Positions 3,041-8,876 of a stretch of DNA of 64,000 nucleotides are shown here, in pieces (the stretch's first letter is position 1; the number at the start of each line of letters is the position of its first letter). The notes under the pieces were generated by a model. It saw nothing but the letters and a program-made list of their open reading frames with translations. It made no database searches and was not told the DNA's origin. The position numbers were made by a program, and so were the translations under genes. The stretch comes from Actinacidiphila guanduensis (GTDB lineage Bacteria; Actinomycetota; Actinomycetes; Streptomycetales; Streptomycetaceae). The DNA is taken from NCBI RefSeq assembly GCF_900103985.1, contig NZ_FNIE01000007.1, positions 124,001-188,000 of the forward strand. Reading direction: 5' to 3'.

Positions 3041-3667
3041 TCACGCGGTGCCGGGCGCGCTGACCAGGGGCGGAAGCGGCGGAACGGTCTTCGCCTGGGC
3101 CTCCCGTACGGCCCGCAGGCAGGCCCACAGCAGCACGTCGGGACCGGGCAGCCACGGGCTCGCGGTGTCGGGCGCCACGACCCAGTGCGAGCGGGTGGCA
3201 GCCGGCCCCGGATCGGCCCCCGGCGCCTCCTGGGTGTCCCAGCCGTCATCGGCCGGACCGTACAGCGGCGGTACCGTGACCGCGTCGCCGCGGCCGTGGC
3301 ACAGCAGCGGCGGCATCCTGCGGCCCCACTCCTCCCAGTCGAGCAGTGCGGGCAGCCGCTGGGCGGTGCCGGGGGCGGACAGCAGCAGCACCCGGCCGCG
3401 GTGCACGGCCACCGGGCCGCTGCCGGGGCCCGAGGCCCACAGTTGCTCCACCACCCGGCGCCCGAAGAGGGCCGGCATGTTCACCACGTCGAAGACGGTG
3501 CCGCAGGGCAGCACGCTGGGCGCGGTGGGGCGGGCCGACCAGAGGGCCTCGACGCTCCGCGGGAAGGCGCTGGCGGAGGCGAGCCAGGCGGCTCCCTCCG
3601 CGGTGACGTACGAGCTGTGGTGGCGGCGCTGCATCTCGTCCATGGCAACTACAGCTACCTGAGGCAC
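3041..3667 (-). CDS. Conserved actinomycete hypothetical (possible primase/polymerase-like N-terminal domain)
   Basis: 208 aa from GTG/ATG-rich start; Met 3667 is the longest start and Met-Asp-Glu-Met at about 3643 is a good alternative. I do not recognise a catalytic motif. The arrangement 'GTVFDVVNMPALFGRRVVEQLW ... GPVAVHRGR' then 'SAPGTA', 'VPP' and 'WVVAPDT' is of the kind Streptomyces annotations sometimes call bifunctional DNA primase/polymerase N-terminal-like; that label is from memory and tentative. The product at 12255-12698 shares the same order of short blocks (GPV, PPGTA or APGTA, WVV-P), so the two are probably distant paralogues. It is transcribed toward tRNA-Lys and separated from the next upstream gene by about 150 nt. 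Confidence 0.6.
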   Translation of the reverse strand: MPQVAVVAMDEMQRRHHSSYVTAEGAAWLASASAFPRSVEALWSARPTAPSVLPCGTVFDVVNMPALFGRRVVEQLWASGPGSGPVAVHRGRVLLLSAPGTAQRLPALLDWEEWGRRMPPLLCHGRGDAVTVPPLYGPADDGWDTQEAPGADPGPAATRSHWVVAPDTASPWLPGPDVLLWACLRAVREAQAKTVPPLPPLVSAPGTA

Positions 3668-3814: not shown

Positions 3815-4165
3815 CTACGGGGTGGCGCCGCCGCCCTTGATCAGGCGCTCGCCGAACTCGGCCATCTTGCGTGCGTAGTCCTCCGTCCAGCCGGCCTGCT
3901 CGGCGAGGGCCGCGAAGGTCAGCCGGTCGAAGCGGCGGGGGTCGGCGAGCTGGGCCGCGGCGATGGCCTGGAACTCCGTCGCCCGGTCGGCGGCCGCGCG
4001 GAAGGCGACGGCGAGCTCGGTCGCCCGCTGCAGCAGCTCGCGGGGGTCGTCCATCGACTCCAGCTCGAAGAAGCGGTCGGTGCCCTCCTCGGGTATCGCG
4101 CCCGGTTCGAACCGCAGCGGCACCGGCCGCCGCCACTGCGGCGTGCCGCCCGCATCGGACCCCAT
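3815..4165 (-). CDS. Small conserved hypothetical protein
   Basis: 116 aa. ATG 4165 chosen because GGAGGGAG lies 6-13 nt upstream and the longer frame is not conserved-looking. The product is mainly helical and charged (RFEPGAIPEEGTDRFFELE, then RELLQRATELAVAFRAAADR) and ends KGGGATP; no signal peptide, membrane span or catalytic motif. Function unknown. It follows the helicase operon by about 186 nt on the same strand. The gap (4166-4351) holds an imperfect hairpin around gccgcacc/ggtgcggc but no clear terminator. Confidence 0.65.
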   Translation of the reverse strand: MGSDAGGTPQWRRPVPLRFEPGAIPEEGTDRFFELESMDDPRELLQRATELAVAFRAAADRATEFQAIAAAQLADPRRFDRLTFAALAEQAGWTEDYARKMAEFGERLIKGGGATP

Positions 4166-4351: not shown

Positions 4352-5743
4352 TCAGAGGGCAACGCGATGTTCCGCGAGGTGGGAGAGCACCGCGTGGTTG
4401 GCCTCCCAGCCGTCGGGGAACTTCACGGTGACACCGAGCCGCACCGGCTCGGAGGAAGGGTGCTCGTCGAGCAGTTCGGCGACCCCCGCGCGGCACACGA
4501 CGACACACGCGTGCCGGTGCCGCGAGGCGAGCACGCACAGCCGCCCCGTCTCCAGGTGGAAAGCCGTCGCGTCGGGCCGCCCCGACAGCGGGTGGAGGAC
4601 CACCGTGACGTCGAACTCCCGCCCCTGCAACCGGTTCGCGGTGTCCACCGCCACCCCGGCCACCCCCACCTCCGAAAGCGCCGCCCGCACGGCCGCCGCC
4701 TGGTCGCGGTGCGCGGTGCCGACCGCGATCCGCTCGGCTGTGAGCGGCGCGGGCTCGTCCGCCGAGAAAGCGACCCCGCCGCGGTCCAGCAGCCGCCGCA
4801 CCACGGCGGCGACGGCCCGTACCGCCTCCGGATCGGTCCGCGGGGTGTGCCGGGCGGGCAGCTCCAGCAGGCCCCAGCCGCTCTCGGCGGCCTCGTCCAG
4901 CACGCGGTCCACCGGCCCGCCGTCGCCCGCCGCGCCGAAGCCGAGCCGCCGGTCGCCCTCCCCGGTGCCGCTGCGGAAGGGCGTGTACGGGTAGAACGCC
5001 CGCGACACCAGCGGCGCCGCCGACGCCGGCAGCCGCCAGGACACCGGCAGCCGGTGCTGCGGCAGCCCCGGGTTGTGCGCCAGCAGCGTCACCACCGCGC
5101 TCGCCGAGGGGTCCCAGCTCAGCCCGGCCCACTGCTCGGCCCCCACCACGCTGAAGGGGTCCAGCTGGCCCGGGTCGCCGACGAACAGCGCCCGCTCGAA
5201 GAGGCCCGCGACCTGCAGCAGCGCGTCCGAGCGCATCTGGTACGCCTCGTCCACGATCGCGTGCCGCCACGGCTCGGTGTCCTTCACGTACGCCCACTTC
5301 GCCGCCGTGGCGATCACCACCTGCCGCTCCCGCAGGTCCGCCACCGAGGTGGACTTCGCGATCGAGGGGTGCCGGTCGAGCGCCGGGTCCGGCGGCGAGT
5401 CGCTGCCGTGCAGCCGTCCCACCGGCAGTTCGGGGTCGGCCGTGGCCAGCCGGGCCGCCAGGTCGTCCACCTGCGCGTTCGTCTGCGCCACGATCATCAG
5501 GGACTCGCCGGCCGCGGCCAGTTCGCGGGCCGCGCGCACCACGAGCGTGGACTTGCCCGCGCCCGGCGGGGAGTCCACCACGACCCCCCGCGCGCTGCCG
5601 TGCAGGGTGTCGGCGAGGATGCCCGCCGTCGCCTCGGCGGCCGCCCGGCCGGGGTCGAACGGCTCCGCGCCCCTCCCGTGGCCGAACCTCTCGTACGGGC
5701 TGCCGGCCGGGTCGGGGCCGGTGCTGCGCACGGGCTGCGTCAC
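4352..5743 (-). CDS. SF1-type DNA/RNA helicase ATPase (AAA domain)
   Basis: 463 aa. Walker A is SPPGAGKST (residues 58-66), Walker B-like IVDEAYQM, then a motif III-like block LFVGDPGQLDPF. C-terminal motifs are VGTAHRDQ, then TANRLQGREFDVTVVLHPL and LCVLASRHRHACVVV, matching the motif V/VI region of UvrD/Dna2/NAM7-like superfamily 1 helicases. Short for a helicase, with little beyond the two RecA-like lobes. The start ATG overlaps the stop of the upstream gene as ATGA, so it is translated as the last member of a three-gene operon with an unknown protein and a PD-(D/E)XK nuclease. Predicted role: ATP-driven strand separation or translocation working with that nuclease in DNA repair or defence (inference). 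Confidence 0.82.
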   Translation of the reverse strand: MTQPVRSTGPDPAGSPYERFGHGRGAEPFDPGRAAAEATAGILADTLHGSARGVVVDSPPGAGKSTLVVRAARELAAAGESLMIVAQTNAQVDDLAARLATADPELPVGRLHGSDSPPDPALDRHPSIAKSTSVADLRERQVVIATAAKWAYVKDTEPWRHAIVDEAYQMRSDALLQVAGLFERALFVGDPGQLDPFSVVGAEQWAGLSWDPSASAVVTLLAHNPGLPQHRLPVSWRLPASAAPLVSRAFYPYTPFRSGTGEGDRRLGFGAAGDGGPVDRVLDEAAESGWGLLELPARHTPRTDPEAVRAVAAVVRRLLDRGGVAFSADEPAPLTAERIAVGTAHRDQAAAVRAALSEVGVAGVAVDTANRLQGREFDVTVVLHPLSGRPDATAFHLETGRLCVLASRHRHACVVVCRAGVAELLDEHPSSEPVRLGVTVKFPDGWEANHAVLSHLAEHRVAL

Positions 5744-7362
5744 AGGTAGTCCTCCGGGGTCACGGGGTCGGGTGCGTCGGCGACGGGTGCCGCGGGGGCG
5801 CCGGGAACGGCGGACTGCGGCGGGCCGCCGTGCGTCCAGGGCGTCTGCTCGGCGTCCGGCAGGGCGGGCCCGCCGCGCGGGTCGTGCTCGAACAGGGTGA
5901 AGACGACGGTGTCGCCCACCTGCGGCACCGAACCCTCCTTGGGGGTGCGCCCGCTGCCCATGCCACCGGTGAGCTTGACGGTCACCCGCCAGCCGGGCGC
6001 GGGAGCGGCCCGCTCCGGCTCCTCCGGGCCGCGCGGCTCCACCGCCACCAGCTCCGCGCTCTGCGCCGAGCGCGCCCCCGGCAGCGCCCGGTACGCCTTC
6101 GTGCCCGGCTCGGCCTGCGGCAGGTCGTCGGTGGCGACGGTGAGCACCGGCCGGGGCATCGGGCGGCGGCCCTCCGACCAGGTCATCACGACATCCAGCA
6201 CGGTGCCGCTGAACGCCTCGCCGGACAGCCGCCGCACCGCCATGGCGAGCGGGTCGTCCAGCGCCTCCTGGGCGGCCAGCCGCGCCTGGGCCGTCTCGCG
6301 CCCGGCGAGCTTCTGCGCGGCGGTCACCGCGTCGTCCCGCTTGGGCTGCGGCGGCTCGCCGGCCCGCACCCGGTCCCGGTGGCCGGTGAACGACCAGCGG
6401 TCCCGCTTCCAGCGCTCCGCCACGTGCTCGGCCTCCGGCAGCGTCCGCAGCAGGTCGAGGCCGTGCCAGACGTCGTCCCAGGTGGGCCGCAACTGCGAGG
6501 CGACCAGCTCGCGCACCTGCTCCTGCGCGGCGGCGACCTCGGCTCTGCGGCGGGCGTCGTCCCCCGCCTCTTCCAGCGCGGCCCGGGCCCTGTCGTAGCG
6601 GGCGAGGGCCGGCGCCAGCACGCGGTTGTCGAAGACGGGGTCGGTGGCCGGGCCGGCCGGCGGGCTGACCAGCAGGCCGTCAGGGGTGCGGCCGGTCTGC
6701 GCGCGGGCGGCGGCCGCGGGCCCGTCCAGCCCCGGCGGCGGGTCGATCCAGCCCAGCAGGGCGCCCAGGTGCTGGTCCTCCATTGCGCTCTGGCCGGTGG
6801 CCCAGTGCCGGGTGAGCAACTCCGTCATGGCGAGCAGCAGGCTGCTGCCGGGGGTGCGGGCGCGCTCGGCGTAGTGGGTGAGCCAGCGGCCGAGCAGCGG
6901 CACCGGCACGGGCACCGGGTGCGGCGCCTCCGGGTCCTCCACGGTGCGCAGGAAGCGGGTCGAGCGGCCGACCAGCCGCACGAACTCCACGGCCGCGCTG
7001 TTGGGCACCACGATCTGCAGCGCGTCCGCGCACAGCTCGGTCTCCTCGCGGTTCCGCGTCGCCGGCTCGACCTCCACCTCGTCCGACAGCCGCTCCACCT
7101 CGGGCAGCAGCGCCTCGGCGAGCCCGGCGAAGAAGCCGAACCGCAGCTCGCGGTCGAGCGGCTGGGGCACCACGAGCAGGGTGGGCACGGCCCGGTCGGT
7201 GCCGACCATCGCCCCCAGCGGCGCCCCCGCCTCGCCCGCGGTGGTCAACGGCACGAGCACGAGCGGCCGTTCGGCCACGTGCCGATGGCGTACGGTCGCC
7301 GCGGCCACGGCCCTGCGCGCCGCCACGGCCTCGGCCCGCGCCAGCGTGTGCAGCACGCTCAC
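5740..7362 (-). CDS. Unknown protein, middle gene of nuclease/helicase operon
   Basis: 540 aa from GTG 7362, which overlaps the upstream stop (GTGA); its own stop overlaps the helicase start (ATGA). No signal peptide or membrane span. I recognise no known family. The N-terminal 150 residues look globular (VPTLLVVPQPLDRELRFGFF, then ADALQIVVPNSAAVEFVRL). The centre is helical and charged (ALARYDRARAALEEAG, VAAAQEQVRELVASQLRPTW), and the C-terminal part is beta-rich (GWRVTVKLTGGMGSGRTPKE, QVGDTVVFTLFEHD), suggesting an OB-like or beta-barrel nucleic-acid-binding domain (speculative). Its position between a nuclease and a helicase with 4-nt overlaps on both sides argues for an obligate partner protein, perhaps an adaptor or substrate-recognition subunit. 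Confidence 0.75.
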   Translation of the reverse strand: MSVLHTLARAEAVAARRAVAAATVRHRHVAERPLVLVPLTTAGEAGAPLGAMVGTDRAVPTLLVVPQPLDRELRFGFFAGLAEALLPEVERLSDEVEVEPATRNREETELCADALQIVVPNSAAVEFVRLVGRSTRFLRTVEDPEAPHPVPVPVPLLGRWLTHYAERARTPGSSLLLAMTELLTRHWATGQSAMEDQHLGALLGWIDPPPGLDGPAAAARAQTGRTPDGLLVSPPAGPATDPVFDNRVLAPALARYDRARAALEEAGDDARRRAEVAAAQEQVRELVASQLRPTWDDVWHGLDLLRTLPEAEHVAERWKRDRWSFTGHRDRVRAGEPPQPKRDDAVTAAQKLAGRETAQARLAAQEALDDPLAMAVRRLSGEAFSGTVLDVVMTWSEGRRPMPRPVLTVATDDLPQAEPGTKAYRALPGARSAQSAELVAVEPRGPEEPERAAPAPGWRVTVKLTGGMGSGRTPKEGSVPQVGDTVVFTLFEHDPRGGPALPDAEQTPWTHGGPPQSAVPGAPAAPVADAPDPVTPEDYL

Positions 7363-8876
7363 CTGCGCCCCCCGTTCCCGGCGCCGTCCGCGCCGCCGAG
7401 GACCGTCCGAGCCGCGCCGGGCCTCGTGGGGGCGTCGGGGGCGGCCGCGCGTTCCGCGGTGGGCGGGCTGTCGGCGGCTGTGTCCGGCTCGGCCGCGCCT
7501 GCCGCGTGCCTGCCGTTCGCGGCGGCGGAGGCGGCCGAGTGCTCGCTCTTCGTGACCGCGGGCCCCTCGTGGTCGCCGGTGGCCGCCCGGGGCACATCGG
7601 CCCGCGGCGCGGTTCGGGCGGTTCCGGCCGTCGGTGTGTCCGGTCCGCCGGCCCCGGCTGCTGCGGCCGTGTGCTGTCCGGACGGGCCGGCGGTGGTCGT
7701 CTGCGGCTCTCCGGCCCCGGAGGCGGCCGCGTTTCCGGCGGGGCCGCTCGGCGGGGCGGGGGGTTCGGGGCTCCTGCTCGCGGGGACGGTCGCGGCTGCC
7801 GCGGTCAGCGCCTCCGCCCTGAGGGCGGCCGCTCGGCGCAGGGCGCCGACCGCCGGGTCGTCGGGGTCGCCCGCCTCGCCGTGGGCCGCGGCCAGCACCG
7901 CCTCCACCGTGGTGAGGCCGCCCAACTCGCCGCGCAGCGACCGTCCCAGCGCCTCCACCCTGCCGTCCGCGCGGGAGCGGTCCCGGCAGTGGAAGGCCAG
8001 CTCGCAGGTGGACAGGCACTCGGGTGCGTACGCGGCCGGCACCGCCTCCACCGCGGCGGCCAGCTCCGCGCGGGGCCGGGTCGGGGTACGGCCGTCGGGG
8101 CCGTAGGCGAGGTCGAAGGTGGTGCCCTCGGGCAGCGCGTCGGCGATGTCCGCGATCCGGGTGAGCCGGGTCAGCTGGCGCCGCGTCACGGCGAGCTGCT
8201 TGCGGATGTCCACGCGGTCGGCGGTGGGCAGGTTGGAGAAGTCCTTCGGGCAGACCAGCAGGATCTCCGGGCGGGTGCGGCCGGGCGCGAGCGCGTCCAG
8301 CGCCAGCACGTACACCGCGGACTGCCGGGCCGCGGCACCCACCTTCGTGGCGTCCGCGCCGCCGTCCAGGATCGGGAAGGACTTGATCTCGACCACGGTC
8401 CACGTGCCGTCCGGCGCCACCGCGACCGCGTCCGGCTCCAGGTACGCCGTCGAGCCGGCCACGTCCAGGGCGAGCAGCGGGTGGTCCAGCAGCGTCCAGG
8501 TGCCGGGGGCGGCCTCCGCCAGTGCGATACGGGTGCGGTGGACGCGGCCCTCCGGACCCGGCGCGGCGAGGTCGGGCAGCTCGGCCCGGCCCTCGGCGCC
8601 GAGCAGGCGCAGCAGTTCGGCGCAGCCGTCTTTCTTGACCCGGGCCTCGAAGGCGTGGCCGCGCGAGAAGGCGAAGCGGGACTGGCCGAAGCGGGCGGGT
8701 GCGCCGAGCGCGTCGGACAGGGCGCCCTTGTCCACACCGGCGGCGTCCATCAGGGCGCGGCGCCGGCATCCGGGGTTCGCCGCCAGCGCGGCCAGCGCAC
8801 GCGCGTCCATGGGCCGGGGCGGGACGGCTGCGCCGCGCAGCGCGGCGAGCCGCTCCCGCAGGTGCGTAGTACTCAC
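7359..8876 (-). CDS. PD-(D/E)XK (RecB/Cas4-like) nuclease with Cys cluster
   Basis: 505 aa from GTG 8876. The nuclease core shows GHAFEARV (H74), then LEPDAVAV (D149) and VVEIKS (E163-x-K165): the GxxxE, PD and EXK motifs of RecB/Cas4-type nucleases. C37 near the N-terminus and C287, C291, C297 after the core (Cx3Cx5C) have the layout of the 4Fe-4S cluster of AddB/Cas4 proteins. Residues about 340-505 are an Ala/Gly/Pro/Thr-rich low-complexity tail without recognisable fold. First gene of the operon; a GTGA overlap links it to the unknown middle gene. Predicted: Fe-S-dependent exonuclease or end-processing nuclease acting on DNA with the helicase. No Cas1/Cas2 or CRISPR array is present, so a Cas4 role is excluded here. 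Confidence 0.78.
   Translation of the reverse strand: MSTTHLRERLAALRGAAVPPRPMDARALAALAANPGCRRRALMDAAGVDKGALSDALGAPARFGQSRFAFSRGHAFEARVKKDGCAELLRLLGAEGRAELPDLAAPGPEGRVHRTRIALAEAAPGTWTLLDHPLLALDVAGSTAYLEPDAVAVAPDGTWTVVEIKSFPILDGGADATKVGAAARQSAVYVLALDALAPGRTRPEILLVCPKDFSNLPTADRVDIRKQLAVTRRQLTRLTRIADIADALPEGTTFDLAYGPDGRTPTRPRAELAAAVEAVPAAYAPECLSTCELAFHCRDRSRADGRVEALGRSLRGELGGLTTVEAVLAAAHGEAGDPDDPAVGALRRAAALRAEALTAAAATVPASRSPEPPAPPSGPAGNAAASGAGEPQTTTAGPSGQHTAAAAGAGGPDTPTAGTARTAPRADVPRAATGDHEGPAVTKSEHSAASAAANGRHAAGAAEPDTAADSPPTAERAAAPDAPTRPGAARTVLGGADGAGNGGRR

Follow-up and report, generated by a model that had tools for sequence, protein, structure and literature searches.

The window analysed here is a stretch of 64,000 nucleotides from Actinacidiphila guanduensis (contig NZ_FNIE01000007.1, positions 124,001 to 188,000), and all coordinates without a locus number refer to it. 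Three overlapping genes, here called A, B and C, occupy 4352-8876 on the reverse strand, exactly the interval given in an earlier note made from the sequence of the window. The genes, their junctions and two neighbouring genes are as follows:

7359..8876, reverse strand: gene A, 505 aa, predicted iron-staple nuclease of the Cas4/AddB/DNA2 type
7359..7362, reverse strand: 4-nt overlap of A and B, reading GTGA
5740..7362, reverse strand: gene B, 540 aa, without known family; the triad's signature gene
5740..5743, reverse strand: 4-nt overlap of B and C, reading GTGA
4352..5743, reverse strand: gene C, 463 aa, minimal SF1B (DNA2/UPF1-like) helicase
3815..4163, reverse strand: gene D, 116 aa, a neighbour of the core copy
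3041..3667, reverse strand: Prim-Pol-like (PF09250) or SCO3374-like gene, also a neighbour of the core copy

The 4-nt overlaps and the GTGA at the A/B junction had been reported correctly, and the ATGA reported for the B/C junction was a trivial slip. No LexA/SOS box was found immediately upstream of A, and the matches with three mismatches that occur across the window are uninformative.

The A protein appears, from its residues and its predicted fold, to be an iron-staple RecB-type nuclease of the PD-(D/E)XK kind. Its parts and signature residues are these:

Residues 22-57: N-terminal winged-helix-like part
Residues about 60-345: nuclease core
Residues 380-505: C-terminal disordered tail (AF2 pLDDT <50)
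8382..8438, reverse strand: nuclease motifs E147-P148-D149 ... E163-x-K165, located by residue conservation
Q185-Y189: QxxxY motif, after E163-x-K165 and beyond the 8382..8438 span
8766..8768, reverse strand: C37, the proposed first cysteine of the iron staple
7986..8018, reverse strand: C287-x3-C291-x5-C297, the C-terminal three cysteines of the iron staple

No Pfam, NCBIfam or PADLOC model reaches its cut-off against A, although there is a weak match to MarR_2, and a profile search of PDB sequences gave nothing meaningful, the matches being short ones to designed proteins. The earlier assignment of A as a PD-(D/E)XK nuclease with an AddB/Cas4-like cysteine cluster is nonetheless borne out by its signature residues, which are present and near-invariant. 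D149, E163, K165 and Q185 are unchanged in all copies of the core type (76/76), and C287, C291 and C297 are 100% conserved across the core, accessory and distant-class copies. C37 is a cysteine in 74/76 core copies, in 42 of 43 others (with one gap) and in 3/3 distant-class copies, and all eight positions (the D, the ExK pair, the Q and the four cysteines) are kept in the three copies from another actinobacterial class. This residue pattern is that of the RecB-family nucleases with an iron-staple Fe-S cluster, among them AddB, DNA2, Cas4 and Bad (PMC7430649). In the AF2 model, pLDDT exceeds 80 over most of residues 1-280 and is below 50 in 284-298 and 380-505, so that the cysteine-loop region (284-298) is modelled at low confidence. 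A Foldseek search of the PDB with this model returned Cas4 SSO0001, RecE, ACE1 (Cas4-like), MGME1, EXO5 and AdnA as leading matches; the list, headed by Cas4 and RecE, is a coherent PD-(D/E)XK set, though the E-values are modest (best 2.4e-3).

The third gene had been read as a minimal SF1 helicase, a description that fits well. AAA_11, AAA_12, AAA_30 and Viral_helicase1 pass their Pfam cut-offs, UvrD_C_2 reaches only E 0.15, and the best PDB matches of a C profile are DNA2 (E 3.7e-12), SMUBP2 (6e-12) and UPF1 (3.9e-8), all of which are SF1B helicases. C is also homologous to the helicase of the TM0106 nuclease-helicases (E 8.6e-20), and its PADLOC matches are partial and to helicase parts only. 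The protein is minimal, with no more than about 58 residues ahead of its Walker A motif:

5546..5572, reverse strand: Walker A motif of C, SPPGAGKST, residues 58-66

This motif and the stretches DEAYQ, GDPGQ, TANRLQGRE and SRHR are near-invariant, with P59-K64 and T66 of the Walker A invariant and S65 nearly so. A search of the same genome with TIGR00376 gave no match at E 1e-5.

The middle protein, B, had been described as belonging to no recognisable family, and neither Pfam, NCBIfam nor PADLOC contains a match for it. Its profile finds no meaningful match among PDB sequences and no known helicase domain, and a search of a phage collection yielded no B homologue. The AF2 model of B (mean pLDDT 79, pTM 0.75) has an N-terminal alpha/beta domain and two further recognisable parts:

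6256..6639, reverse strand: long, stalk-like helices, residues 242-369 (AF2 model, DSSP)
5896..6216, reverse strand: beta-barrel, residues 383-489 (AF2 model)

Foldseek comparison of this model with the PDB and viral libraries gave nothing significant (best E 0.027), the weak matches to the barrel being only HerA, EF-Tu and UPF1. In UPF1 and DNA2, the stalk and the 1B domain come before domain 1A. The modelled order of B, in which helices and then a barrel come before C, resembles this arrangement, and C, starting about 58 residues ahead of its Walker A, has no room for a 1B domain. It may tentatively be suggested that the stalk and 1B barrel of an SF1B helicase have been displaced into B, perhaps with a degenerate RNase H-like N-terminal domain, and that B and C would together make up one split helicase, a reading in keeping with the presence of UPF1 (E 0.22) among the weak matches; however, there is no sequence match, the barrels of EF-Tu and HerA score equally well, and we regard the suggestion as somewhat short of an even chance. 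A sequence proof that B corresponds to the 1B/stalk or RNase H-like region of the TM0106 proteins failed, two attempts with hhalign detecting no sequence relation. By inference only, B might be a DNA-guiding scaffold.

The three genes are tightly linked. B was found in 70 of the 395 genomes surveyed in the class, and A in the same 70, with a single additional marginal match of 44 residues to A elsewhere; in ten of ten genomes without B, A and C are missing too. Wherever the flanking DNA is complete, the examined loci have the genes in the order A-B-C, in Streptomycetaceae and the order's other families, in further actinomycete families, on Streptomyces plasmids and in a distant actinobacterial class; the overlapping starts are kept in most loci, including those of the distant class. 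No fusion of A, B and C was seen, each examined locus having them as individual genes. In one distant copy (L192 1280-2860) the B frame is broken, by assembly error or as a pseudogene. Because the gene order is conserved and A and B co-occur in 70/70 B-positive genomes, the layout is not due to chance. Overlapping starts are common in Streptomyces, and the genes might be co-transcribed as a general DNA-metabolism operon whose products act separately and form no complex. This is very unlikely, given that A and B are never apart in 395 genomes, that they are lost jointly, and that the gene order persists in duplicated copies, in plasmid copies and in a second class. The survey did not find the three genes separated, and B has no recognisable helicase domain; the earlier view of the locus, as coding for a DNA-processing machine of several subunits unlike any system described, is thus supported.

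The known systems that had been named as possible models for this layout, AddAB, DISARM and Hachiman, proved to be the wrong ones, since C is an SF1B (DNA2/UPF1-like) helicase, not a UvrD-like or SF2 motor, and PADLOC finds none of the components of those systems in A or B. AddAB and AdnAB likewise team an iron-staple nuclease (AddB) with SF1 motors, but those motors are UvrD-like SF1A domains in large subunits, whereas C is minimal and SF1B, and the UvrD_C_2 match is too poor to place the triad among them. PADLOC detects neither DrmA nor DrmB of DISARM in A, B or D, and only partial helicase matches in C; the HamA nuclease and HamB SF2 helicase of Hachiman are found in none of A, B and C. DISARM, Hma, Hachiman, Mokosh and Gabija resemble the triad in combining nuclease and helicase functions, and helicase motifs of C recur in MkoA/MkoC and GajB, but A and B match no PADLOC model. 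Wadjet is also excluded as a family for the triad: JetABCD adjoins some accessory copies, but the triad is unrelated to it and mostly occurs without Jet genes.

The closest known system is Bad, the monomeric, single-chain bacterial DNA2-like enzyme of Geobacillus, which has an Fe-S cluster, 5'-3' helicase activity and ssDNA endonuclease activity and whose gene adjoins a type III methyltransferase (PMC7430649). The A-B-C gene order is the domain order of Bad, an iron-staple nuclease followed by a conserved middle part whose structure is unknown and an SF1B helicase, and a neighbourhood with a restriction-type methyltransferase is a further likeness; Bad, however, is one polypeptide and rare, whereas the triad is three genes and core to a whole family. 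The eukaryotic repair enzyme DNA2, the best match of C among solved structures, also combines an Fe-S RecB-type nuclease with an SF1B helicase, but in a single chain that has no B-like part. The TM0106 (TIGR03491) proteins join a RecB-like nuclease, an RNase_H_2 domain and an SF1B helicase homologous to C, but the examples used are single chains, and B is not detectably related to them. Immediately downstream of one distant triad, in the other actinobacterial class, lies a gene for a TM0106 RecB/RNase_H_2 nuclease (L183 4362-6056). The triad shares with DNA2 and Bad the iron-staple RecB-type signature, in residues and predicted fold, and an SF1B helicase of the DNA2/UPF1 group, and it differs from them in that nuclease and helicase are not in one polypeptide. 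It is accordingly proposed to be a split variant working like DNA2/Bad and no plain member of that group, B having been compared, with a negative result, with the TM0106 proteins.

On these grounds, A, B and C probably form a three-subunit helicase-nuclease of the DNA2/Bad type, against which it counts that DNA2 and Bad are single chains. In such a complex, A would be the Fe-S (iron-staple) PD-(D/E)XK nuclease that cuts single-stranded DNA, and C would be the motor, of the SF1B type and with a presumed 5'->3' polarity. B would bridge the two, and the helices and barrel for guiding DNA, which are missing from the minimal C, may come from it. Judging from Bad and DNA2, such a complex would engage DNA at a 5' single-stranded end or at a flap, then unwind and cut it. 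No description of a three-gene DNA2-like system was found in the open-access literature searched. If this reading is right, a conserved DNA2-like machine is present in bacteria of the Streptomyces type, a group with linear chromosomes to which major antibiotic producers belong; such an activity has been considered rare in bacteria. Its subunits, being separate proteins, could moreover be produced and assayed one by one, and B would give practical access to the uncharacterised central part of the bacterial enzymes of DNA2 type.

The earlier note had left the function between replication-fork repair and antiphage defence, and the answer differs by copy. B is present in 34/35 genomes of the same genus, the lone exception being 71% complete, and in 137/148 genomes of the order. 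Among the 56 core loci with full flanks, the neighbours occur at consistent offsets: gene D in 55, the Prim-Pol-like gene in 55, a spermidine-synthase-like gene in 53, a histidine phosphatase gene in 52 and a PAP2 gene in 49. PADLOC gave just two weak partial matches in the ten genes flanking the core copy, and SbcCD, Jet and Z genes (the last described below) are missing from its neighbourhood. The core locus, to which the copy in the window belongs, is thus vertically kept and chromosomal, and is no defence island. Because it is core to Streptomycetaceae and has a conserved, non-defence neighbourhood, genome maintenance is likelier than defence, and the core copy most likely serves flap, fork or end processing. 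That it is instead an antiphage or anti-plasmid system fixed in Streptomycetaceae, which would destroy foreign single-stranded or free-ended DNA by unwinding and shredding it, would accord with the genes beside Bad and beside the paralogous copies, but sits poorly with the near-universal, syntenic occurrence and bare defence content of the core locus, and we consider it improbable. Gene D, which has no Pfam family and no PADLOC match, and the Prim-Pol-like gene, whose product matches PF09250 at E 6.5e-6 with catalytic motifs not evident by eye, may be further parts of the core unit.

A minority of the family's genomes carry a second, diverged B (37-48% identical), and these paralogous copies are the ones that lie beside defence genes. 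In all 11 second copies examined in Streptomycetaceae, a gene here called Z (about 281 aa) lies directly upstream of A as the constant first gene of the cassette; Z (e.g. L178 9971-10816) belongs to no family and has a weak UVR-motif match (E 0.08). These 11 copies and both Streptomyces plasmid copies all adjoin defence or restriction genes, several of the 13 loci being close relatives. In most cases the partners share the strand of C and are no more than about 320 nt away from it; they include DrmD- and DUF499/DUF1156-type genes:

L070-L072 and L077: BPTD_3080 restriction endonuclease next to C
L073-L075: DndI-like helicase next to C, with Wadjet too in L073
L068/L250: Snf2/HKD helicase and then type III R-M endonuclease, next to C
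L069/L251: DrmD-like helicase with DUF1156 and DUF499 proteins, next to C
L076/L249: Orf5/HEC-06 next to C, with DrmD-like and DUF499 genes farther out
L178 and L179 (two Streptomyces plasmids): Wadjet next to C
L067: PD-Lambda-1, convergent

The best explanation of this distribution is that Z-A-B-C is a mobile version of the triad that would be used together with restriction or antiphage operons. In the A proteins of six accessory copies (L067-L072), K165 is gone through a Lys to Arg change, and in five of them E163 is lost as well, while the cysteines are kept; these proteins, which stand beside restriction systems, are probably nuclease-dead, and because of this loss nuclease activity would not be essential to every version. 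In family f124 (probably Streptosporangiaceae; L215-L218), Z-A-B-C has a different, repeated neighbourhood with an NYN-domain gene and others, so that Z alone does not mean defence. The core copies form one group in the phylogeny (SH-aLRT 90), whose outgroup branch is very long; the tree is compatible with either a Z-linked or a core ancestral state. It is possible, if still doubtful, that Z-A-B-C is a defence engine of an exchangeable and so far undescribed kind, with an unvarying four-gene helicase-nuclease cassette paired in operon-like order with varying recognition or restriction partners (BPTD_3080 with a methylase, DrmD-DUF1156-DUF499, type III R-M, DndI-like helicase, Wadjet), and that its three-gene form was domesticated as a core maintenance machine in Streptomycetaceae. 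A core repair-type copy and a mobile restriction-adjacent copy would, if confirmed, represent one DNA-processing engine common to genome maintenance and immunity. A divergent SbcD-SbcC pair is adjacent to Z-A-B-C in L064-L066, L073-L075, L178, L179, L224 and L233, hinting at cooperation with end processing of the Mre11-Rad50 type.
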